45,948 nt of DNA from Fragilaria crotonensis (taxonomy: Eukaryota; Bacillariophyta; Fragilariophyceae; Fragilariales; Fragilariaceae), in contig JAKSYS010000511.1 in the NCBI GenBank assembly GCA_022925895.1, positions 1 through 45,948 on the forward strand. The letters run 5' to 3'. Below, one piece after another: positions 5,323 through 39,750 of this stretch. Numbering within the stretch: position 1 is the stretch's first letter; the number at the start of each line of letters is the position of its first letter. The translations under genes and the position numbers were made by a program. The notes under the pieces are model-generated. The model saw only the letters and a program-made list of their open reading frames with translations. It did no database searches and was not told the DNA's origin.

Positions 5323-6180
5323 ATGAGTATCTCACATGAGCAACAGCAACAACAACATCAAGAAGAGGATCAACAAAGACGGCAAAGGTTGCTGCGTTCT
5401 TCTTCCATGACAAGTGTGTCGTCTGATTCAATCCTGTCCCCTCCGGAATCGCCGCCACTGTCGTTATTGTTAAAACCGACCATGGCACAGGCAACAACGT
5501 CCGCACTACGACTCCGCATGTCCCCTTCGAGTATCATTACAGCACATGACAGCAATTCATCATCAGAATTCTATGCTCCATCACGGAAAAAGCGTGTTAC
5601 ATTTGCAACGGAAGTTGTGTTGAAACCGCCTCCGGTAGAACAGCGATTGCGAGGATTGAGTCTAACTGATCTCGATCATGGAGTGTCGGTATGTCGAGCC
5701 GCGTTCCTTCCCGAATCTGGAGAATCGTATAAATCAATGCGGAAACGGACAACAAAATCATCAACAACAACAAAAAAGTCCAGCAGTAGCAAACCGATTG
5801 AAGTACTGGAAAGGAGGCTGATCAAAATCACTCGAGAGTTGGTGGAAGCATCGTTTGAACTCGAAGTTGGCCAAAATGATGTGGACGAACTCATTCGCGA
5901 AAATGAAGAACTAGAAATGCAATTAACACGGAAAGAGATGACACAAATGGGTTACGATAAGCTGGAAGACTCAGTGGCGGATGTGGAACGCAAAATTCGC
6001 AAGTACACCTCGAAAACAACGAGACTGCGGAGGGCTACGGAATTCTACAATGCCGAGTCTGCACTCATGATCGATCAGTTAAAAGTATCCAAGAGCCTTT
6101 TGAGACGAAATGCAAAGAATGACAAGCTCCCGCTCGAAAGTATTCCAGAGGTTCATAAAACCGCGCCATCGGCGGCGTGA
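5323..6180 (+). CDS. Coiled-coil protein with RVxF-type motif
   Basis: A 285-residue protein of unrecognised family. The frame is open from 5275, but the first ATG is at 5323 in a good context (gcagccATGag), so that start is chosen. In order: a Gln/His/Glu/Arg-rich N-terminus (about 5-25), a Ser-rich stretch (about 26-48), a basic-hydrophobic segment KKRVTFATEV at about 89-98, a Lys/Ser/Thr tract (about 136-158), then a long charged helical region (about 159-255) with heptad-like Leu/Ile spacing that should form a coiled coil. RVTF preceded by basic residues matches the RVxF docking motif used by partners of protein phosphatase 1. A regulatory or scaffolding role is therefore possible, but the motif is short and can arise by chance. 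No membrane or secretion signal is seen. Confidence 0.75.
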   Translation: MSISHEQQQQQHQEEDQQRRQRLLRSSSMTSVSSDSILSPPESPPLSLLLKPTMAQATTSALRLRMSPSSIITAHDSNSSSEFYAPSRKKRVTFATEVVLKPPPVEQRLRGLSLTDLDHGVSVCRAAFLPESGESYKSMRKRTTKSSTTTKKSSSSKPIEVLERRLIKITRELVEASFELEVGQNDVDELIRENEELEMQLTRKEMTQMGYDKLEDSVADVERKIRKYTSKTTRLRRATEFYNAESALMIDQLKVSKSLLRRNAKNDKLPLESIPEVHKTAPSAA

Positions 6181-6836
6181 TCATATTTACGTTGCTACAA
6201 AAAACCGACAGGAGGGCAAATGCCTACTTGATGGTACAACTAGGGCCTGCCGATACTCGGCATGCGTCAGGGTGGCCCACGAGATTTTCACCCATTGTTG
6301 GAAGTACCGAAGAAATATTCGGCACATGGGCGTATGCGAATGGAAAATCATCTGAACTGCCTGAAGATTGGAGATACTGAATAGCATCGCGTACACTACT
6401 GTCACGGCTTTAACGTGTACTACAGTACACTGGACTATCACCTTTATAACATAGTCTGTTATTTGTTATTTGACGTCCTTTCTACATTCTACTCTACTAG
6501 CTAGTAGTAGTGTTAGATGCAACATCTAATATAGAATATAGATCGAGGAGTATCATACTCTGGACTCTGGAGTACAAAACGCGTGGTCTTCAACTGGAGT
6601 GCGTCTGTTTTCAGATTTCGCACTCAAGTTATCGTCGCAAACAAACGAGTGTGTGTGCATGGCATGAACATGCAGCACAGATTTTCAGAATAGGGAGAAC
6701 GCAGGCACCGTTTTCCGTTGCCGCTAATTCATGAGGTCGGCATATCGTCACCAACAACCAACAGACCAACGCACGGGTCGATATTTCACACGTTCAAGAA
6801 AGTACATCGTCGAGGGCACAGTCTCATGACCTGACC
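6181..6836. other. Intergenic, between convergent genes
   Basis: Lies between the 3' ends of the plus-strand coiled-coil gene and the minus-strand DUF6824 gene. No gene or RNA was recognised; it presumably holds both 3' ends. Confidence 0.5.
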
Positions 6837-7444
6837 CTAGAAGTGAGATCGAGAACGAAATGAGCGCGGAATAGATGGCGACCAACTAGTCCCATTGACA
6901 TGAAGGATAAAGGCATTAACGTCCAACTCGAACATGCTGAGGAGGCGATTCCCGTCATGCACGGCGATCGCGGGGCGGAGACTAGCACGGAGATATCGCA
7001 TTCGCTGTCTGATCATACGATGTAGTTCATGATTGTTCCGATTAATATCCGTAAAGTAGTTCCTATCGGAGCGACAATTGGCGAGAAACCTTCCACCAGT
7101 GATCAACACTTCGTTGACGATCATGTTTCGAATCACCGTCTGATGAAATCTTGGGGCTTGCATGTAGTCTCGAAGGTAAAAGGCGCACCTTCGTCCGAAA
7201 AATCGGTTGCCATGGTGCGCATGAAATCTTCTACCACAGAGAACATCGTTTGGCGTAACCTGTGATAAGGGAATAGCTCCTTCGAGTGCTCCATCCTCGT
7301 CCCTTGGAACGTGATCGAGTCTCTCTTGGAAATTCCCACCTTGATGAATCTCATTCACAACACCTGCACAATGAGAGGCATACGAGGTTAGCGTGTGGTT
7401 GAAAGGCATTGTCCTCCTCTTCCAATCAACTCACGTGCGGCCAT
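6837..7444 (-). CDS. DUF6824-domain protein, two exons
   Basis: The proposed model is exon 1 at 7444-7435 (10 nt, Met-Ala-Ala plus one base) and exon 2 at 7363-6837, giving 178 residues. The diagnostic stretch is at residues 41-100: PNDVLCGR, then HHGNRFF, an Arg/Lys-rich helix, NMIVNEV and GGRFL. This is the consensus order of the DUF6824 domain, which occurs in large numbers in diatom proteomes. Many family members also carry transcription-factor-like or disordered regions, but the molecular role is unknown. The domain is nearly full length; the usual aromatic end of the motif is present only as a Tyr after the GGRFL region. Without the intron, an ATG at 7409 would add an implausible N-terminus read from intron sequence. 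Further upstream exons cannot be excluded. Confidence 0.8.
7364..7434 (-). other. 71-nt intron in DUF6824 gene
   Basis: On the minus strand it starts GTGAGTTG, a near-perfect donor, and ends in TTGTGCAG. Splicing joins the ATG at 7444 in frame to the domain-coding exon. The 10-nt coding first exon is unusually short. Confidence 0.65.
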
Positions 7445-8492
7445 TTTACACGTTCAGATTGCAACGACGACCCTTGTCAGACCCTTGTGATAAAGGACTG
7501 TGGAATGCTACTTTCCTGCTCGATGGTTGTTCTTTGTATTTTGTAGTACAACTCCGTATAATTAGCGCAAGTTGCTGAGACCGAAGTACATTCCGTGTAT
7601 GTAGTATGTATGCATACACGTTATCATTTGGAAGTGAATACCAGTGCAAGTACCAGGTAGACTTTGACGTGAGAGAGACATAACGCAACGGAGTTTGTGC
7701 ACTCCTTCGTCCGACGAACGCCTGATTGATATAGTATGCCCCCAATGTGTGTTCGGAATTCGGAATACTGTACGACTAGTACTCCGTGTGTTTGTACTGT
7801 ATGCATAACATGGAACTCTGCCTATATTCTATGCATACGATAACCTGGTGGACTGGTACTAGTACAGGCATACCAGAACCCAGAACTGTCGAAATCAGAT
7901 TTCGTCGCTTTGCTTCTACATACGACAGTATACAGTATATATGATATATTGTTAATACCGGTTGGATAGTAGTATGACAGTATGACAAGTACCAGTAGTA
8001 CCACGCAGAGGTGCCTTGCACTTTGCCAGACCTTCCTTATTTGAGTTGTTCTGTTGCCAAGACTTCATCTCAGATTGACTCGATATCCGATACTACTCAA
8101 ACTCAAGGAGAGAAATGGACTGTGCTAATTCTCTATCGCTTCGAGCTGCGTACGCCACGGTAACCACGTTTTATGCAGGAATTGCAAGCTACGTCATCGA
8201 CATTCGATGGTCCAATGACCAATGATCCATTCATCGAACCATGCTACGATACATTTTAGTCGGCATTTGCTGCGAATTAGCAGCTCCATAGAAGTAGTAG
8301 CTTTCATTCCTAAACTTAATCAGCTAATGTCAACCCAAGGACTCAAAGCACGCAAAATTGTGAGTTGACGAGAAATAGTACATGGCATCGAGTGCGACAA
8401 CACGCGCGTTCCATTCTTCCTCCGGAATCTACAAACCGTGCGCCCGCCTGCGAGTTATCGACACCCAATGCGACAGGTGCGCAGAAATTTCA
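7445..8492. other. Intergenic region
   Basis: No coding region supported. The stretch contains the promoter side of the DUF6824 gene and the 3' side of the next minus-strand gene. Several AT-rich, TAC/GTA-rich tracts at about 7730-8000 look like simple-sequence drift. Confidence 0.45.
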
Positions 8493-29867: not shown

Positions 29868-30140
29868 CTATGATTGTGTGTTAGTCTTCATGTTGCTTCT
29901 CTTTGCTATGCTCGTAATCAAAGTTTTTGTTGCTTCCATCAGCCTTCGCGTCGGGAAGCAATCTCTTTTCCCGGGCGTTAGGGGCCCGGAATTTGGAAAT
30001 GTCCTCTTATTGTGACCTCGGCGGTCGCAGTTTGAACAGATGATTGGAGAATCTTTACCCAGTTGGTATTTCAGCACTTCGATGCCAAATTCTCTTGGTT
30101 TTGGGGCGCGCAGCTCCACGCTTCTTAACAATTGGCTGGC
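29868..30140 (-). pseudogene. Inner MULE transposase, zinc-knuckle tail
   Basis: Two minus-strand frames give KKRGAARPKTKRIWHRSAE and, after a shift near 30,060, SPIICSNCDRRGHNKRTF. The second is a CX2CX4HX4C zinc knuckle whose last Cys is replaced by Phe. The same arrangement (Arg/Pro/Lys linker then knuckle) ends the outer MULE transposase at 34,515-34,745, which supports the assignment. The upstream part of the gene resumes only after the copia fragment, near 32.4 kb. Confidence 0.7.
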
Positions 30141-30149
30141 GGAAGCATT

Positions 30150-32440
30150 TTGCCATCAGATTTCAAAGAGTCCGTGCTCACCGGAGGAGAACTACCCGGA
30201 TTTGGCCGAAGCATTCAGCGCTTGCAAGTTGGTTGAAGTCAAGAAGGATCCAGAGTTGTGGTTCAACGACTTGGATCATCTCAACATGCGCATCGGGAGG
30301 ATCAACGCAAAGTATGAGAAGGATGAGCTCCAAATGAAGTCACACATCATGAATTCTATGTTGACGGGCTATGACCCTGTGATTGTGAAGTTCCGTGGCG
30401 AGTTGGCGGATACTACGTTGACCAAGCTTCGCAAGGAGATTGTTTTGCAGTGTAAGTCTTTGTTAAAGGTTAAAGGAAAGTCTACCTCGGAATCGGCATT
30501 GATGGCGAACATGAACAAGCATCCCTACAAGAAGTTCAAAGGGATCTGCAGAAACTGTGGAAAGATCGGCCATAAGGCGGCAGAGTGTCGTTCAAAAGCG
30601 GTTGAAGGCAGCGACGAGGTTGGTGGAAAGGGAAAGACCTCTAGCGCCAAGTCAAACGTTACTTGCTACAACTGTGGCGAGAAAGGTCACTACTCGAACA
30701 AGTGCACTAAGCCTAAGAAGAGTAAGGCTACAAGTGATCCTACTTCGGATATGGCTATGTTTGTGGGTGTCACCGGAGTTGTGGAGAAAGAATGGGATGA
30801 AAAGGACAATCAGAAGGAGAGAAATGGCGGTGAAATCAACAATTGGCAGGATTCTGAGTTATTCAGTTTTGAGCAAACTTGTGGAGACATTCATACCGAC
30901 TTTGATGTGGCATTCGAACGTCCTGTGATCATGACCACGACTGCGGAGGATGTCCATACGGAAATTGTCGAATCCACAGCTTTGACTGTTATCAATCACC
31001 CTCGTGGCAATTATGCCGGTCATCAAGTTTCGAACGAATTTGTCGGATCTTCTGGTACAGATAACACGGAGGAATGGCTTCTCGATTCAGGAGCTACGTC
31101 GGGAGTTACATACGATAAAACTCTTATGACCGACATGCGCCCCTCTAATCGGAAAATTGAAATTGGTAATGGAGACATGGTTGAGACGCTCGGACAGGGA
31201 ACAGTGACACTGACGGACAATGACGGAACGCTTGTGTCCTTCACAGATGTGTACTACGCCCCTGCGTTTACCAAGCATATTGTCAGCTTTCGCCAGCTCA
31301 TCGAGAACAATTGGAGCTTAAGCAAAGTTACCCGTAATGAATTTGTCTGGGATACGCCGATGTCTACTGCACCAGTTCGGTTCAAGATAAACGATAAGGA
31401 CAGACTGTGCTATTTTGACGGGACTCGAACGCCCGGACCACATGACAGGGAGTCAGTAAATAATTTAACGGCTTCACCCGTGACTCTCGATATCAATGTT
31501 GCACATGGCTTGTTGGGACATCCTGACACTCGTACGGTGAATGCTATGGCCGCGAAACAAGGTTGGACATTGACTGGGACAGTGAAACCATGTGGTTCGT
31601 GCGCTCTCGCAAAAGCACGCGCCAAGACGGTTCCTAAGTCTACGTTGACAAAGGCCAAGGCTCCCGGAGAACGACTTTTCTTGGACATTTCGGGCCCTTA
31701 TTCGGACTCTTTGAACCAGAACAAGTATTGGCTTCGCATCGTGGACGACCATACAAGATTCAGTTGGGACTGCTTTCTACCAAAGAAGAGCGGTATCCAT
31801 ATTCCGTTGGCAAATTACTTAAGATGAATAAAGCAGCGGGCAAACAATGCAAGTTCCTTCGGTGCGACAATGCAGGTGAAAATGAGTCTTATGTACAGGA
31901 GCTCTGTTCCAAATATGATGTGGAATTGGAAATGACCGCTCCCAACACGCCTCAGATGATGACGGTGTCGATGGCAACGGTGCTATTGTACCACGCGACA
32001 ACACTGCAACTACAAAAACTATCTGTTCGATCGAATCGTGTGATAGCTATGTCCTGGACGATGATGATCTTGGTTGGACAGTTGTGAACAGAGGTTCAAA
32101 CAAGTCCAAGACCAAGACCTGACATAAGGATTTATGCCAAGAGGCTTGCAAGAGTTGGAAAGCCTTTATAGGCATATGTGCCAATGGATCTGGGGTTAGA
32201 TTAACCCAGTGGGATTACTTTCAGCCTTGGAGTTGGTCTTGTTCCAACTTGGACTTAAGGAAAGTGGTCTTGTGTTTGTTCTGCTTGTACTGGATGAGAT
32301 GTGTGGTTAATCTTGGGAGCTTTTGGAGTCCAGGAACAAGATTGGAATAGATCTAGAAAGTGTAATTTCTAGAACTCACAATATTCAAAAACAGGATCTA
32401 GTAGCGTCAAGTTCACTACTGGATAGAGAGTCTACGGTAT
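30150..32440 (+). mobile_element. Ty1/copia fragment without LTRs
   Basis: Plus-strand gag, protease and part of integrase, then the extreme C-terminus of the polyprotein, with RT and RNase H missing. No 5' LTR precedes gag: MULE-derived sequence is readable up to about 30,140. The 300 bases after the stop (32,123-32,440) may be a piece of 3' LTR, but no second copy exists in the window. The fragment lies in the opposite orientation to the MULE transposase that it splits. Junction positions are estimates to within about 40 bases. Confidence 0.75.
30170..32122 (+). pseudogene. Copia gag-pol, truncated
   Basis: An open frame from about 30,170 to 31,827 reads gag (DPELWFNDLDHLNMRIGRI), two CCHC zinc knuckles (CRNCGKIGHKAAEC near 30,547 and CYNCGEKGHYSNKC near 30,664), aspartic protease (LLDSGAT near 31,080), and integrase zinc finger (HGLLGH, then CGSCALAKA). 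The start of the integrase core follows (LFLDISGPYSD, IVDDHTRFSW). A frameshift near 31,800 leads to LRCDNAGENESYV (integrase core). A second shift near 31,960 jumps to an acidic C-terminal tail ending with TGA at 32,120-32,122. The later integrase, RT and RNase H are absent, so an internal deletion of more than 2 kb relative to a complete copia is inferred. Confidence 0.85.
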
Positions 32441-33525
32441 TGGGAATCAGAGATGTTTAACACCTGCTGACAAACAATGGGGCATGCTTCCTTTAGATAC
32501 TTCAACATCTGAACCCAAGTTTGCCAATCCTCATTGCTGGCAATCATGAAACCAATGGGGAATACATTGTTCTTGTCCCCTGGTGTCAGAACAGATGCAA
32601 CATGTAATGTTCCCTTGAATTCACTGCAAAGGTGGGTAGCATCAAGGAAAATCACCGGTCTCACACTTAAGAGCATATTTCACAAATCCACGAAGGAGGT
32701 GAATGCTCTGAATCTCAAAGGTTGGCAAACATGTGAACCCAATCAGCACTGACCCTGGCTTTGTTCTTTCAAGCTCCTCAATGCAAGATCCAACCAGCTG
32801 AATGCTCTTGCAGTCCAACCTTTTGGTTATCAGCCATGGTGGTGTCCCGGTTGACGGCACGCCATAGTGTGTTGGACGAAACGACTTGGGAATCGTCTTT
32901 TTGTTTGCCATTGTCCTCACAACGTGATTTCCTTCCATCAGGCTGCAAGTGGTGCACAATGAACTCCAGCATGGATTGTCTTCATCCTCCTAGAGATAGC
33001 ATACTACATACCATCACTCCTGGTGTGCCTCAAGGCACGAATCCCAAGCAAATGGACAGTTGATGTGTTCCCTGCATTGATAGAACCGAAATTTCCCATT
33101 GATGGAACGCTTGATGCGCAAGATTTTGCCAGTTTTTTGTACATAGATTTCCACGAGAGGGTTGATGTGTTCCATCTTTGCAAAGGAGTCAACGTTGGCT
33201 TCCGCCATCACCTTGTACTAGAAGGTAGTGTCCGACAGGAATCATACACCCGTAAGATCACTTTCCTCCGTCTTGGAAGAAGTGGACACCACTGGGGCAT
33301 TGATGACCAACTCATTGGGAAGTTGTTTTGCCTCAAAATGCTGGTTGACGGCTTCCTGCAACAAATCCTCCATCTCTCCGGACTCGAGGGACACATCGGA
33401 GTCATGATGTCCGTTGTTGCACTCTTTGTGTTCAACGGCTTTCCTGCTGGGGCTCTTCGAAACAACTTTGTCGGCTCCACCTGCTCGGTTTTGCCAGTTT
33501 GATCAATAAGCAACAATATCGGCAT
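32416..33525 (-). pseudogene. Inner MULE transposase, 5' part
   Basis: From its 5' end near 33.5 kb the minus strand encodes a low-complexity start. Then come FAKMEHINPLVEIY and GKFRFYQCREHINCPFAW (33,014-33,211), which resemble the Cys/His N-terminal DNA-binding domain of MULE and FAR1 proteins (WRKY-GCM1 fold). A linker follows, then RPVIFLDATHLCSEFKGTLH with PIGFMIAS (32,416-32,676), the first Asp region of the MULE DDE domain, here intact. Frameshifts separate the blocks. The gene is cut at about 32,440, where copia-derived sequence begins; the rest of the DDE domain and the SWIM finger were not found. Confidence 0.75.
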
Positions 33526-33571: not shown

Positions 33572-33975
33572 CACACAATGTGACAAGAGCATCGCACCAA
33601 GGTGAATTATGACCACTGTTAAAGTTGATGGACAGGGTCAGAATGAAAAGGTTTGTAGCCAACAATGCCATCATCAGAAAATAAATGATGGAGAACGGCT
33701 CCATGAAAAAGTAGTGACCATGGTTGATTTATGTTTGATCTACACAACGGGGTACCATATCTTCAGTGGAACCTTGGCGTGGCGGGCGCGGAAATTGAGA
33801 AATGGGTGTTACAATTAAAAAATGGACTACACAGCAAACATGGCCAAAACATGTGTACTTTATTGAAATAGTGAAATCATAATGTACTATATTGCAATAG
33901 TGTACAAAGCTAGATAGAGGGTCATTGTACTTTATAATCTTTAAACTTATTAAAGGACTAAATTGCAATTTCCCC
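33572..33975 (-). repeat. Inner MULE right TIR
   Basis: A 404-bp inverted copy of the left TIR. It starts just upstream of the 5' end of the transposase remnant, so the transposase promoter would lie in it. Confidence 0.95.
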
Positions 33976-33984
33976 TTTAATATA
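33976..33984 (+). repeat. Target-site duplication, inner MULE, right
   Basis: TTTAATATA directly after the inner element's CCCC end, a perfect copy of 28718-28726. Confidence 0.95.
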
Positions 33985-34435
33985 TCAATAACACCTATTA
34001 TCTTTTTGCCGTTTTTTCAATATCACCATTTATGTTTTACACAATTTGCAATATCACCTGTTATTATTTGCAATAACACCTGTTTCAATTGTGCCAATTT
34101 CAACTCCACGCAAATTATCATACCCCATAATGTAGAATGCCAACCCATTGACACGCTTTCAAGCGTAAGGATCTCATGCATTGCTTAGCATTATCATGTG
34201 CTTCACACTAATGAAATAAGCTGTGTTATTCCATTGACAAGGCTTGGCGGGTTGGTGTGAGGAAGTATGTGGTCATCTTGTGTGCTCTTGGGTACATTCT
34301 GGTTGCATTGTCATATGTCTTCAGATTTCTTGGGCTTGAGACCGGCCAGTAACAAAAAATCGCTCGTATACAGTGCTGTACAAATGTACATGGACAATCT
34401 TTTATGACACCAAGTGACACAACACAATCTCATCA
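33985..34435 (+). repeat. Outer MULE left TIR, inner piece
   Basis: The rest of the left TIR, complementary to about 37,810-38,255. Identity is high but not perfect; for example TGACACCAAGTGACACAACA is shared near the inner boundary. Confidence 0.9.
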
Positions 34436-34514
34436 TGAAGTAGCTCTTCTTCATGATCAAGAGCAACAGCCACAACACCACATATACATGCAACTTGAAC
34501 TACTTTAAGAGCAA

Positions 34515-34925
34515 CTATTCTTGTTTGTTGTCAGCAACATTTGTAAGGACCACCTTTGGTTTCATTCCACATGTTCGGCGCTTGTGTCCACACTCTCTAC
34601 ATTTGGAACACACAATTGGCGACTTTGATGGGTCAGAGAGTTCACTCCGTCTGCAGTATCTTTTCACTTTTGGTCTACCAGCTTGTCTTTTGATTCTTGG
34701 TGGAGGAGGCTTTGTTTTTCCATCATAAGCAATTGTGTCTAACACACCTGGAACAGTGCCTTGTACTTGTAAAAGTCTGGTATGCCATCGTCTGATTCAG
34801 ATAACAGACTTCTGAATTCCATTCTATCACTCAATTTTTGAAAACATGCCATAAAGTGATGGCACGGAATACCAATATCTTGCCAGAAGCCACAAGTACA
34901 CCACCTTTTCGACTATCCGAGTAAG
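34515..34925 (-). pseudogene. SWIM finger and zinc knuckle of MULE
   Basis: In a frame shifted relative to the DDE stretch, the minus strand gives WCTCGFWQDIGIPCHHFMAC (34,847-34,903), the CXC...CXH signature of a SWIM zinc finger, in its standard place after the DDE domain. After another shift, 34,745-34,515 encode a Pro/Arg/Lys linker and CSKCRECGHKRRTC, a CX2CX4HX4C knuckle, then a short tail and TAG. Confidence 0.8.
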
Positions 34926-35843
34926 GTGTGTTGCATGATCCCCCGAACTAATTTCTTGTGTTTGAGGTGTTACCTTGTATTGCCCTCCTCCACTTGCCAA
35001 CTCGTACACATCAAATCCGGCCGAAGCATCCCTTTCATCTCTCATCCTTTGCCAGACAGCAGCAACAACATTATCTGGATTCTTGTCAACATACTTCATT
35101 CTATTTCTTGAAATGCGACTCGTCATGATGTCAATAATCTTCTCGATTGCTTTGAGCCATGGCATGCTGCGAGGTGCAAGGAACATGCTATTGGCAGATT
35201 TGCTTGTGTTTGATGTGATGATTCCATACCGAGGCGGAAGTCTCATGTTCTCATCCAGCCAGGATGTGTTCTTCCACAATCCATCAATGCTTTCTATGTA
35301 GGTTGCAGCGGCTGGTTGTAGCTTCCGGACTTGATCAATGAAGAATTTCTCCTGCCGTGTAGAGAATGTTCGTGCAATCCGAAAGACATATGCCGCACAT
35401 TGTGCACCAAACCTCTGCTTCACATTGGCTTCAATGTGCTTGACACACAGCACATTTGTGTTGTCTGGGCACACATTAACCAGCGCTGGTTGAAGTCCTT
35501 TGTCACGATCCGATATAAAGATGAAAGGATTCAGCTCAGTTGTTGCATCCCTTTCGCACAAAGAAGGGCAAGCCTGTTTCAGCTTTGTCAGGAAGACTGT
35601 CCATGTTTCTCGGTCTTCATTTCCAGAAGACAGAAGGAAGCCAATTGGATATACCTCGTTACCTCCTGACAATACAGAAGCAATGGAAAGAGTGCCAACA
35701 TGGTCAGCACATTTCATATGTGCCGCATTGAGTGAGATCACGGGGCGTACAAACTTAAGGATGCCATCCATAAATCCCGGAATCACCATAGCCTGTAGCA
35801 ATTCATGATCCTCAATTCTCCCACTCAATGACTGAAGCCGCAT
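34827..35843 (-). pseudogene. MULE DDE transposase domain
   Basis: A 338-codon open stretch. It contains RPVISLNAAHMKC, the place of the first catalytic Asp, here Asn; YPIGFLLSSGNEDRETW, the usual MULE core; FIFISDRDKGL with the second Asp; and CVKHIEANVKQRFG (the conserved C/H helix). A long helical region follows. The transposase would cut and join element ends during movement. The Asp-to-Asn change at the first catalytic position predicts inactivity even without the frameshifts. An internal ATG at 35,843 starts the open stretch, but the domain certainly continues upstream. Confidence 0.85.
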
Positions 35844-37075
35844 TGCCTTTCAGTAGTTCTTGCAGGTATGGAATCATTTGCTGGTTGCCTTCTTTTGCTC
35901 TGTGCTTTGACATTCGTGACTCTTTGTGAAGGCCACAGTAGGCAGCAAAGTAAGCAAGACACGGAATCCCCCTTCAGAAATCCCGTTTTCATCACATCTC
36001 GGGCAGTTGGTATTCCAACCTTAGTTTTAGCAGCCTCTTCAATGTATTCCTGAACTTTCTCAGTGCGCCTCTGTTTCCACTGTCGCCCATCACTTGCTTT
36101 GAGTGGACGACGGACCGTTGTGTGACGCAACACAGATTGCTTCTTGATGACATACTTGCCATCTGATCGTCTTCTCCCAACATGAACCTTGAACACACAG
36201 TTGACGTGCTCAGCGCATTTGTAGACCCGGAACTTGTCCACTTCACTTCAACGAATCACAACCTGACATCCAGACTGCTTCTGGTATTGCTCCATGACTG
36301 GAGTCACATCAGCAAGGCTTTTGAAGGACTCAATTTTGAGTTCCTTCACTAGTTTGGAGAATACAACATCTCCAACATGCTCTTTCGTGTTGGTGTTCGT
36401 TTTGTTATGTGCTTGTAGTGGTTGGCATCCTTGTTGTTCCTGACCTTCACTTTGCATGCTCTGGGAGTCTGTCTTGGCTTGCACAATTACAATACCGCCA
36501 GCAACCTTCTTCTTTTCAGTATTGTTCTTCTTCTCCTCTCCTTCCTCAAATCTCAATATCTTGCCTCCACACTTCTTCATTGCACGGCTTGCCGGTGAGA
36601 TCTTTTCCATGAGAAGCTTAAGCATGCCAGGCGACTGTGTTGCATCCTTTGCTGCTGACTCTTTAGTTGCTACATTCCCATCCACTATACCCTCAATGAC
36701 GTTACATGAGAAGGCTGCGGATGACTCTGCAACATTAGCAGACACATCATTTGTTGTGTCTTTTCCGTCCATGATGACCTCAACTTCAGCAGTTGAGGAC
36801 TCGGCATTTGCTGAGTCCTCTGCATTTTTTGATACTCCAAGAACCACAATGCTGCCATCATAGGTGTCGTCCATGGTGAGCAATGCCGGAAAGCATCCTC
36901 TGATGGCGCTGCAAGGAAGTGGATACTTGGATAAGTTTTCAACAGCGCCAAGGTGAGTTGCCAAATCAGAACATAGTTTTGTCATATGTTCTTGTTTGAA
37001 TGTTTCATTGGTGATTGGAATACTGTCGATGATGTGCAGAACCACACCAATCAAAAAGAGGCCAGCCACAATCAA
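35825..37075 (-). pseudogene. Linker and Cys/His DNA-binding domain of MULE
   Basis: A 275-codon frame (36,248-37,075) continues from the peptidase (LFLIGVVLHIIDSIPITNET). It becomes a disordered Ser/Asp/Glu then Lys/Gln-rich linker and ends at a stop. After that in-frame TGA the same frame resumes at 36,241 with DKFRVYKCAEHVNCVFKV, a Cys-His motif of the WRKY-GCM1-type zinc domain that MULE and FAR1 proteins use to bind DNA. A basic stretch follows (RRPLKASDGRQWKQRR). The homologous domain in the inner MULE has the same KFR..C..H.NC pattern. Confidence 0.7.
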
Positions 37076-37726
37076 TTACATTACCTTGAGTCGGACATGG
37101 GCAGTGCTCGACCTGAGTTTGAGGGCGACCTATCTTAAACTTATCATCACAGACAAAGTAAAGCGCAAATTTGTGAAATTCAGCAAGAAATGCACAAACA
37201 ATATGACTTGCTGCACCTCGTGTCCTTGTCGTAGGTGCACTGCAAAAATCCATCAAGTCATAGTACTCAATACCTTTGTAGAATTCACAACCATGCTTTC
37301 CAGTCAACTCAATCACAAGGACAAAAAATGTGACTTAAGAACCATTGGCACAACAAGCTTTGATCCCCTGGCAAGGGTGGTGGCTTTGTAGCTCTTCAGG
37401 CTTGTTCAAATGATTTCAAGGCTCTTTCGTGACGTTGATGTGAGCACCAGTTCATTTGCCTTCTCAATGAAGAAAGTTGTTGCTAATCCACCAATGTACA
37501 ATGGTGGTACGGATATATCTTCATCCTGAGAGGGAAGCAACGGTGGTGTGGGAGATGGAGCTCCTCTTTGGATCAAGTAGTCCAACAGGTTTGTACTCAA
37601 ATACTTATTCTCCTTCAGCGCCTGCACATCTTCTGCATGTGCCAAGAGAGCAAAAGTGAACCTTGGGTCTCCTGGAAAAAAGCTCTTCTCAACAGCCGCT
37701 CTTCTTGGCTTCTTCTTTGGTGGCAT
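37040..37726 (-). pseudogene. ULP1/C48-like cysteine peptidase domain
   Basis: Three catalytic landmarks appear in the right order and rough spacing: a His at SHF followed, after a T-run frameshift, by VLVIEL (37,310-37,335); an Asp in the EYYD motif (near 37,258); and QGNVIDCG (near 37,075-37,100), where Gln shapes the oxyanion hole and Cys is the nucleophile. Upstream NKYLSTNLLDYLIQRG (about 37,540-37,600) fits the family's N-terminal leucine-rich start. ULP1 enzymes cut SUMO or similar modifiers. In plants, ULP-like domains travel in Kaonashi-type MULEs. The Trp that usually follows the His is absent. This copy is frameshifted and therefore probably inactive. Confidence 0.65.
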
Positions 37727-37809
37727 AATGAGACAAGAAATCAGTGTCAGGGACTGTCAAAAAGGGAAGGGGGAGGGAGAGGGTGATGCTGTTGATGATG
37801 ATGAATGGC

Positions 37810-38364
37810 TGATGAGATTGTGTTGTGTCACTTGGTGTCAAAAAAGATTGTCAATGTACATTTGTACAGCACTGTATACGAGCGATTTTTTGTTACTGGC
37901 CGGTCTCAAGCCCAAGAATCTGAAGACATATGACAATGCAACCAGAATGTACCCAAGAGCACACAAGATGACCACATACTTCCTCACACCAACCCGCCAA
38001 GCTTTGTCAATGGAATAACACAGCTTATTTCATCAGTGTGAAGCACATGATAAAAGCAATGCATGAGATCCTTACGTTTGAAAGCGTGTCAATGTGTTGG
38101 CATTCTACGTTATGGGGTATGATAATTTGCGTGGAGTTGAAATTGGCACAATCGAAACAGGTGTTATTGCAAATAATAACAGGTGATATTGCAAATTGTG
38201 TAAAACATAAATGATGATATTGAAAAAACGGCAAAAAGATAATAGATGTTATTGATATACTAAAAGTTAGCATGCTATTATTGTCATTTGAGGGGGTGTT
38301 TTATAGCCGATAACAGGTGTTTTCAATTTTTGGAATAGATAACAGGTACGATAGCAATTTCCCC
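37810..38364 (-). repeat. Outer MULE right TIR
   Basis: A 555-bp inverted copy of the two left pieces joined together. Being uninterrupted, it shows what the left TIR looked like before the inner element inserted: the bases ACTTTTAGTATATCAAT on the complementary strand match the joined left halves. Confidence 0.9.
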
Positions 38365-38619
38365 TAAAAAAATCGGTACCCGAAATTTTCGACTAAACAT
38401 AACTTCTCGAAAAACGCTCTCGTATCTCCAATATTCTTAGACCAGTCGATCCGTTATGAAATCGCGCATCGATTGATACCCATTTGAGTGTCATACGAGG
38501 GATATTAGGTGTCAATTTTTATTTTTCAACCCACTATTGTGCTTAAACTAGTACAAGTACCCTGTTGACAAGGTCTGAAGAAGTGGCGGTGCGATGAGAC
38601 GGCACAACGCTACAACTTA
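38365..38619. other. Spacer between two elements
   Basis: Sequence between the right end of the outer MULE and the inverted-repeat element. Nothing recognised. Confidence 0.4.
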
Positions 38620-39750
38620 GAGCATGTCTTATCGTGTGGGGTGTAAAAGTAGAATTTTATACCCTCCTGGGTATAAAATTTAGACCCTCGTAAAAAATTA
38701 AAAAACGCAATTCTTATGGTAAACGCCGTATACCCTTGAGCGAAATAGAGAATCGAAGTAGTCGTATGGGTACCGTTGTACGACAGTACGACTACATGTC
38801 AATGAAACATGAAATCACCCTGATGACTTCACCACGAACAAAGTGCACTGTGTCATCACAACTTGTTCTTCATCAATCAAACTCCTTTCATTGATTGAAA
38901 AATTGTCAGTACATTTACTTCTCATCCGCCACCCGGCGCACTGGACATGCAGTACGGTACTCACAAATCACTGCCAGCGCGCCGCTTCTCCATATTCTCG
39001 CTTGGTACCCCACACTACTGCCAATCCCTACAGTGTACCAGCGCTACTACACATCACTACAGAGTGTAATCGGAGCACATCATGTACTCCGCTCACAACT
39101 TACTCTAGCTTAGCTTTTTAACCTCATCTGCATCTTTGCCGGTCGATACGCGATCGTAAAGGTGACAAGGGAACAGCTATCGCTACGGTTCCAGCCTTCC
39201 TCTTCACAGCTAACTCGCCTCACGAACATACAGTATCATCTTGTGTCTCCTTGTGTCGTCTTCTCTCACATCATCGACCAACGAGCAATCCTGATACCTG
39301 TCTTGTGTCTAACTCCGCTCCCCAGCGGGAGTGTCTCGGCGTGCGCCTTGGAAGGTTTGGATTCACAAAAATCATCATTCACAATGGATGATAATGGGAG
39401 TGGTGTCTTGGTGAGGAGTTCCTGGTGGAGTTGCCATCTTGGTTGTGCATTCCTTGTGAATGTGATGAATCACTCGGAATGAAATGGTGACAACAAGCAA
39501 TCTGGTATAATGATGGTGTGAAAATTCATGTAGAAACTGTACATTTTACCACTGGAGCAATGACACAGTACTACTATACCCCGAGAGGTGCAAACATTTA
39601 TACCTAGGTATAAATTTCGAGAATTTATACCTAGGTATAAAAAAAGTCTAAAATTTGACCCCCCCAAAATCCTTGTACCCCCCCATAAGAATTGCGTTTT
39701 TGAAATTTTTTCGAAACACGATTGACTTATAGCCATGATAAGACTTGCTC
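38620..39750. mobile_element. 1.1-kb hairpin-rich inverted-repeat element
   Basis: The ends are inverted copies: GAGCATGTCTTATCGTG on the left against the complement of GATAAGACTTGCTC on the right, and AACGCAATTCTTATGG (38,704-38,719) against 39,683-39,698. Between these blocks both ends contain TATA-rich hairpins. No transposase is encoded, so this looks like a non-autonomous DNA transposon. TTA lies immediately left, and TTTA immediately right, so a TTA duplication (as in PIF/Harbinger) is possible with one extra T; the family is not certain. Confidence 0.65.
39597..39641. repeat. Double palindrome TTTATACCTAGGTATAAA
   Basis: Two identical perfect 18-bp palindromes (39,597-39,614 and 39,624-39,641) separated by nine bases, themselves arranged almost symmetrically about a TCGA. 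A related interrupted hairpin (TTTATACCCTCCTGGGTATAAA-like) is at about 38,654-38,677 in the opposite end of the same element. Confidence 0.95.

Follow-up and report, generated by a model that had tools for sequence, protein, structure and literature searches.

Peptidases of the Ulp1 and OTU types have been reported, in the portions of PMC2836005, PMC3212892, PMC13317346 and PMC2528002 that deal with them, from plant Mutator-like elements (MULEs), MuDR elements of hydra and lancelet, Ginger1, grapevine CACTA elements, the Cryptons of oomycetes and, in the case of OTU, Helitrons. Among the plant MULEs, an excerpt of PMC2528002 describes the KI-MULE as bearing a ULP gene in reverse orientation to its mudrA/transposase gene, and the passages of PMC13317346 on VANDALs relate that certain VANC genes contain an Ulp1 domain and connect these genes with sequence-specific hypomethylation; a section heading of PMC5735166 has VANC targets evolving by tandem repeats. 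A role for the peptidase in the transposon was proposed in the relevant part of the 2010 Ginger paper (PMC2836005), and a 2026 review, in its passage on plant elements, calls the function of the Ulp1 domain unknown (PMC13317346). Here we describe a decayed MULE of the diatom Fragilaria crotonensis, together with its relatives in the same genome. The element lies on the minus strand at 33976-38365, from one terminal inverted repeat (TIR) to the other, of contig JAKSYS010000511.1 (assembly GCA_022925895.1), positions 1-45,948 of which are referred to below as the window. Among the matches listed for open-licence PMC papers, Repbase and subscription papers lying outside that search, we saw no fusion of C48 and MULE in a diatom or any other stramenopile. 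The window element is almost certainly the decayed form of a diatom MULE that encodes its transposase as a single polypeptide comprising, in order, an N-terminal Ulp1/C48-like peptidase, a variable linker, a DNA-binding domain, a DDE core, a SWIM motif and a CCHC knuckle.

All parts of this protein are recognizable on the minus strand of the window. The coding region opens with a start Met at 37726, and this Met and the N-terminal peptidase part that follows (FPGDPR.. LSTNLLDYL .., 37406-37726) align to the N-terminal parts of relatives P0002, P0005 and P0008. The frameshifted peptidase domain (36839-37678) was matched in two frames, at 189.5 and 87.4 bits, by a profile built from relatives. 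Its catalytic His codon (37328-37330) directly precedes FFVLVIEL (37305-37328), from which it is displaced by one base in frame, and sequence motifs place the catalytic Asp in EYYD (37257-37259) and the Gln (37086-37088) and Cys (37068-37070) in QGNVIDCG. Beyond a variable linker (36374-36838) lie the Cys/His DNA-binding region of the transposase (35981-36373), for which some relatives give a weak DBD_Tnp_Mut match below the cut-off, and the DDE core (34926-35813). The latter includes a PF10551 match at 35427-35693, which scored 32 bits in one search and 29.6 bits in another (cut-off 27.6), and a DDE motif at 35715-35735 that reads SLNAAH in the window and SLDAAH or SLDATH in relatives. A SWIM-like CxC..CxH remnant (34835-34906, translated by eye), matching P0001 918-941 and P0002 907-930, and a zinc knuckle of the form CX2CX4HX4C (CSKCRECGHKRRTC, 34569-34610) complete the order. 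A preliminary description of 34515-37726 had read His, Asp and QGNVIDCG, in this order, upstream of the DNA-binding, DDE, SWIM and knuckle parts, and we located every one of them where it had been placed. It had also assigned them to the same minus-strand coding region, which holds for the order of the parts but not for a single open frame: the region is split into six consecutive minus-strand open segments, with one frame change between His and Asp, just after His, and another just after Cys. Likewise, the interval it gave spans the coding part but falls short of the element, which extends to TIRs at 33976-34435 and 37810-38365.

None of the window's open reading frames (ORFs) submitted to Pfam matched PF02902, nor did the window when the genome was searched; the C48 identification therefore rests on relatives. 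The window is 77% identical to P0012 (C329) over 36080-37678 and 93% identical over 37065-37331, and three proteins of the window family, P0012, P0005 and P0007, score 28.7-29.6 bits against PF02902, for which the cut-off is 20.7. In total, 9 of the 10 relatives' proteins that were scanned exceeded this cut-off, at 28.7-35.4 bits. Searched against the PDB, a profile of 7 peptidase domains retrieved 17 distinct sequences, among them SENP1 at E 1.5e-6, whose His, Asp, Gln and Cys line up with those of the profile, and then SENP2, Ulp1, SENP7, Ulp2 and SENP5; P0002 alone as query returned two weak matches only (E 0.74 and 0.94). The silence of the window's own ORFs toward PF02902 is what might be expected if H, D and QxxxxDCG had come together by accident in a degenerate MULE. 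We rejected this possibility, to which we assign next to no probability, because relatives 77-93% identical to the window match PF02902 above cut-off and both the profile and PDB searches agree with them. The front domain of the window element is thus confirmed as a predicted Ulp1/C48-like cysteine peptidase. Scans for further relatives confirmed none, either among viral contigs, for which both the peptidase and the full alignment served as query, or among prokaryote genome contigs.

The catalytic residues are widely retained among the relatives. Scoring a residue as kept when at least one aligned fragment per locus had it, and considering loci in which the column was covered, we found His at all 33 loci, Asp at 30 of 33, and Gln and Cys each at all 32, these loci including many sister copies as well as the seven profile-building rows and hence not being independent. 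In the 7-row peptidase alignment, all four positions are invariant. The domain is diverged in its N-terminal half, and in all 32 loci a Phe follows the catalytic His, as opposed to the Trp of the host ULPs C460, C15 and C493. Divergence of this kind would suit a catalytically idle adaptor, that is, a C48 fold kept only to bind SUMO or a partner. Such a fold would not need His, Asp, Gln and Cys, let alone their invariance across the alignment and retention in 30-33 of 32-33 loci, and we accordingly consider an idle adaptor improbable.

We next asked how the predicted peptidase is joined to the transposase. C48 and MULE domains, each above its Pfam cut-off, occupy one open frame in 6 of the 10 scanned proteins, namely P0001 (C509), P0002 (C873), P0005 (C54), P0006 (C49), P0007 (C875) and P0009 (C636). 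P0008 (C131) combines C48 with a sub-threshold MULE match, while by Pfam P0010 and P0012 have C48 only and P0011 has MULE only; SWIM was also matched in P0002 and P0006. Outside the ten-protein scan, genome match positions show the same single-frame pairing at C165 and C631. The linker between peptidase and transposase varies, with a length of 80-165 amino acids. This arrangement, an N-terminal peptidase ahead of a variable linker, could be that of a self-processing protease, which would release the transposase by cleavage within the linker, in the manner of the protease domains of viral polyproteins. A search restricted to Gly-Gly sites found none that is shared: 3 of 6 linkers have one Gly-Gly each, at different places, and the other 3 have none, which makes self-processing less likely. 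Furthermore, the two-gene family described below keeps the catalytic residues though no DDE core is left in that gene to free. We therefore view self-processing as unlikely, though somewhat less so than the idle adaptor.

Codon comparisons provided a measure of constraint. Peptidase omega ranged from 0.06 to 0.37 over 12 pairs, and transposase omega was 0.10-0.14 in 7 pairs. For C873 paired with C131, C87, C305, C707 and C65, peptidase omega was 0.11-0.17, and the transposase gave 0.10-0.12 in the pairs with C87, C305, C707 and C65; in these C873 pairs synonymous divergence (dS) is 1.6-2.4, near saturation. At low divergence, in the comparison of C131 with C305 and C707, omega was 0.10 (95% 0.03-0.27) for the peptidase and 0.12-0.13 for the transposase. 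The peptidase of C509 gave 0.14 with C636 and 0.09 with C4, both saturated, and the value of 0.06 for C131 and C87 reflects too few changes to judge. Three linkers were tried, and none yielded a between-family alignment of at least 70 codons; the peptidase is therefore conserved beside a drifting stretch. Taken together, these comparisons show purifying selection on the putative peptidase, constrained much like the transposase. Separately, synonymous divergence between C131 and C305/C707 (L009 versus L010/L034) is ~0.10 in the peptidase and 0.32-0.34 in the transposase, which hints at recombination or conversion between these copies.

A census of the genome (62.1 Mb, 881 contigs; one genome only, its counts being lower bounds) returned 60 PF02902 matches at E up to 0.1. 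Seven of these were assigned to host ULPs (C460 twice, C52 twice, C15, C493 and C232), where C460 resembles SENP1 (E 5e-14), C493 resembles SENP8 (6e-14), C15 and C52 were assigned to the host by sequence and C232 by match shape alone. Half of the 60 matches have a MULE match 1.0-1.6 kb downstream on the same strand, and 5 more lie near a MULE match on the other strand. As a simple random-placement estimate for the 53 matches outside the host ULPs is 0.08, the 30 same-strand pairings are not due to chance. All but one of the 53 non-host matches trace to the ULP-MULE lineage. A DNA-binding/transposase part of the clade lies within 2.5 kb on the same strand in 45 of them (C137, C313 and C20 among these being the two-gene family); at C4 the clade transposase comes next, C346, C579, C193 and C91 are members of the two-gene family, and C651 and C873:61316 are peptidase pieces of ULP-MULE families.

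The MULE tree, built from the 42 of 91 MULE matches that lie inside fetched loci, unites the 16 Pfam-paired ULP-MULEs, the window, C330 and C32 in one group of 19 with support 0.97; C330 and C32 were put in the ULP group only after the tree had been seen. C330 has the peptidase, and C32 was matched only in the transposase part, from amino acid 474 on, such that the peptidase is present in all non-window members of the group but one. Peptidase distances track those of the DNA-binding-DDE part (Mantel r 0.94 for 20 loci, 20 of the 21 offered having been kept; 0 of 2000 permutations as high). In addition, the family peptidase profile failed to match any of four host ULP loci (C460, C15, C52 and C493) at E 1e-3, and recent capture of a host ULP was rejected on this ground. 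Because of the single MULE group, the congruent distances and the lack of a match to any of the four host loci, a single old association appears to fit better than recent or repeated capture within this genome. MULEs do capture host genes, ULP sequences especially in plants, according to the pertinent passages of PMC13317346 and PMC2528002, and omega reaches 1.03 between near-identical copies of the present families. However, that the peptidase should be a passive captured fragment, a functionless product of transduplication, is very unlikely in light of the purifying selection between families, the one-frame fusion, its presence throughout the group except in C32 and the distinctness of the four host loci. 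The C48-MULE pairing is thus real and old, and bears signs of being kept by selection. The preliminary description had proposed just such a ULP-like peptidase ahead of a MULE transposase in a diatom element, and the two checks it named, a C48 profile applied to relatives and a search of the same genome for copies with both domains in one frame, turned out in its favor with the 9 and 6 of 10 proteins noted above. Of the alternatives it left between ancient association and repeated capture, the former is the better fit within this genome. Its comparison with Kaonashi cargo finds no support, as the peptidase here is an N-terminal domain of the transposase, encoded on the same strand and constrained much like the rest of it.

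A second diatom family carries the peptidase in a different setting. C137, C20 and C579 share a unit of 8.55-9.0 kb at about 97-99% identity, with common ends and 36-bp TIRs, and C313 is a fourth copy as judged by its ends. One strand of the unit encodes a MULE transposase of another clade (P0011), and the opposite strand a gene consisting of peptidase, DNA-binding part and knuckle from which the DDE core is gone (P0010); the catalytic residues are kept. A search for the TIR with up to 3 mismatches found 33 ends, shorter derivatives included, and 0 in a reversed control. We considered whether the family is merely two nested elements and rejected this, as C20, C137 and C579 share the whole unit with common ends; whether or not an insertion gave rise to it, it moves today as a single unit. 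We found no target duplication around the two-gene copies. In the split gene of C20, a 502-aa (amino acid) frame extends over the catalytic half and on through the knuckle, the N-terminal part lying in a different frame; in that of C137, a 382-aa frame contains the whole peptidase and ends within the linker. Sequence 71-79% similar to the window TIR lies 5' of this gene, and no inverted copy of it was found on the 3' side; in C20 a 31-base tandem array of 6.4 copies (or a 62-base array of 3.2 copies; L013 7289-7486), which could be an array of binding sites, stands beside the gene. The TIR-like sequence and this array make it probable that the split gene derives from a fused ULP-MULE in which the core was lost. 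Another core-less derivative, C40:67082-68347, has peptidase and linker joined to the knuckle. The C20 unit also contains further reverse-strand ORFs of 129-274 aa (5889-7879, minus strand, in unit coordinates).

What might the peptidase do for the element? Taking identity and mechanism jointly, we favor a C48-fused MULE whose peptidase works as a SUMO/ubiquitin-like isopeptidase that aids the element, and put the probability of this reading at roughly 0.4. On this, the simplest view, the peptidase would be catalytically active and remove SUMO or a similar ubiquitin-like modifier, and the transposase's own DNA-binding domain would bring it to the terminal repeats. It may free either host proteins involved in silencing or the transposase complex of such tags, and tag removal could in turn keep the element expressed, or help strand transfer and repair. 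SUMO-like genes (12 PF11976 matches) are present in the host, as are SENP-like enzymes. Where the DDE core has been lost, the peptidase and the DNA-binding part have remained together, which is suggestive, though no proof, of a function other than strand transfer, for example relief of silencing.

Several observations weigh against this reading. The Phe that replaces the Trp of host ULPs after the catalytic His counts against a simple SUMO role, and the substrate choice of the element peptidase may differ from that of host ULPs; plant KI-MULE ULPs were themselves judged unlikely to act on SUMO in the passage of PMC6117577 concerned. The window copy is dead, and among the two-gene copies examined none has the whole peptidase-DNA-binding gene in one frame. 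In the census, 25 of the 60 C48 matches had no Pfam MULE within 6 kb, although the later comparisons explain most of these, and C93:90324, which does have a Pfam MULE 1.6 kb downstream, fell outside the clade placement. With respect to selection, between-family dS is mostly near saturation (1.6-2.7, one value capped at 5.0), and constraint is weaker, if still below 1, for C131 versus C65 (0.28; 0.15-0.47) and C509 versus C651 (0.37; 0.23-0.57), as well as for C329 versus C509 and C631 (0.34-0.36). Near-identical or decaying copies gave omega values of 0.34-1.03, the window 0.77, in a comparison that reports only pairs with peptidase dS <2 and in which few changes, frame breaks and decay are mixed.

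The remaining features of the locus concern the ends of the window element and its surroundings. The 5' (right) TIR (37810-38365, minus strand) is an inverted copy of the 3' (left) TIR (33976-34435, minus strand), and its outer end (..GCAATTTCCCCT) agrees with the TIR end of relatives, AGGGGAAATTGC. The left TIR has lost its outer ~100 bases, alignment to L005, L008 and L017 ending at 33976. The bases that truncate it, 33952-33975, resemble the terminus of the C49 MULE family (..GGACTAAATTGCAATTTCCCC), and one MULE-like element seems, from this resemblance, to have landed in another at this point. The window's own left end is lost; in the close relative C875 (L008) the flanking 8 bp TATTTGTA, read by eye, are a candidate for the 8-11 bp target site duplication of MULEs. 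TIRs of at least 40 bases, measuring about 490-620 bp, occur in 5 of the 17 loci first fetched; none of at least 40 bases was present in the stretch read for the other 12, three of which belong to the two-gene family with 36-bp TIRs. We found no tandem repeats in the window stretch or inside the elements of L006, L008 and L016, and dropped on that account the idea that the DNA-binding part of the fused family reads tandem sites. An Rfam scan of the window found nothing.

Alongside the element lies a second remnant of the same transposon clade (29991-33307, minus strand), with a DNA-binding part at 33050-33307, a DDE part at 32446-32676 and a knuckle at 29991-30141; it is apparently split by a copia-like pol fragment, identified by eye, on the plus strand at 31638-32122. 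Adjoining the element on its other side is a pair of 32-base inverted repeats (38688-38719 and 39683-39714), 963 bases apart, possibly the ends of a small non-autonomous transposon. Elsewhere in the genome we recorded 19 silicon-transporter matches, 18 of them over the cut-off, which we take as the mark of a diatom, with three such domains in one 1456-aa open frame at C97:29749-33762 and two in a 1008-aa frame at C771.

The window lineage can be set beside several described systems, each known to us from the parts of the cited papers that treat it. Like Ginger1, it unites a transposase and an Ulp1 peptidase in one protein, but Ginger1 has a Gypsy-integrase-like transposase with a C-terminal Ulp1 or OTU domain (PMC2836005), whereas here the peptidase is N-terminal and the transposase matches MULE and Transposase_mut, with no integrase family among its Pfam matches. 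The Mutator (MuDR) elements of hydra and lancelet with Ulp1, and MuDR-6_HM with an OTU gene, likewise combine a cysteine peptidase for ubiquitin-like tags with a MULE (PMC2836005, PMC6446971), in different hosts. CryptonF and CryptonS of oomycetes share with the window lineage a C48 peptidase in a stramenopile transposon; Cryptons are, however, tyrosine recombinase elements, and the CryptonS peptidase is an additional protein (PMC3212892). The MULE-Diatoms, group 37 of Dupeyron et al. 2019 (PMC6446971), are diatom MULEs with SWIM, as is the window lineage, and are described with 123-124 bp TIRs and no other listed motif or ORF, a comparison made by description only; the terms ULP, SUMO, peptidase and protease are absent from the main text of that paper.

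A further such system is Kaonashi of Arabidopsis and other plants (KI-MULE, KIU, and those VANDALs whose VANC bears Ulp1), in which, as in the window lineage, a MULE carries a C48 Ulp1-like domain. In contrast to the reversed ULP gene of KI-MULE, the peptidase of the window lineage is fused in frame at the N-terminus of the transposase on the same strand, and in contrast to TIR-less KI-MULEs the window element has long TIRs and the second diatom family 36-bp TIRs; we therefore rejected KI-MULE membership for the window lineage. It is the second diatom family, with its ULP gene reversed to the transposase, that resembles KI-MULE as described in the excerpt cited above, by layout and not by peptidase sequence. 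Fused to a transposase, under apparent purifying selection and present both with and without the DDE core, the peptidase offers clean constructs for the question of tag removal, and a diatom lineage far from plants lets one ask whether tag removal helps transposition or counters silencing. One more extended proposal is that peptidase and DNA-binding part form a sequence-guided remover of SUMO-like tags by which silencing of the element is lifted. It would have arisen once in a diatom MULE transposase, come free when the DDE core was lost and entered an unrelated MULE as an additional, convergent gene, diatoms and plants having reached the KI-MULE/VANDAL layout independently. The 31-base array beside the C20 split gene, when set beside the evolution of VANC targets by tandem repeats, would be one hint in this direction, drawn by analogy; we hold the proposal to be doubtful, given that no two-gene copy seen has the gene whole in one frame. 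Were it true, the two-gene element of 8.55 kb would represent the equivalent, in a stramenopile, of anti-silencing by VANDALs.

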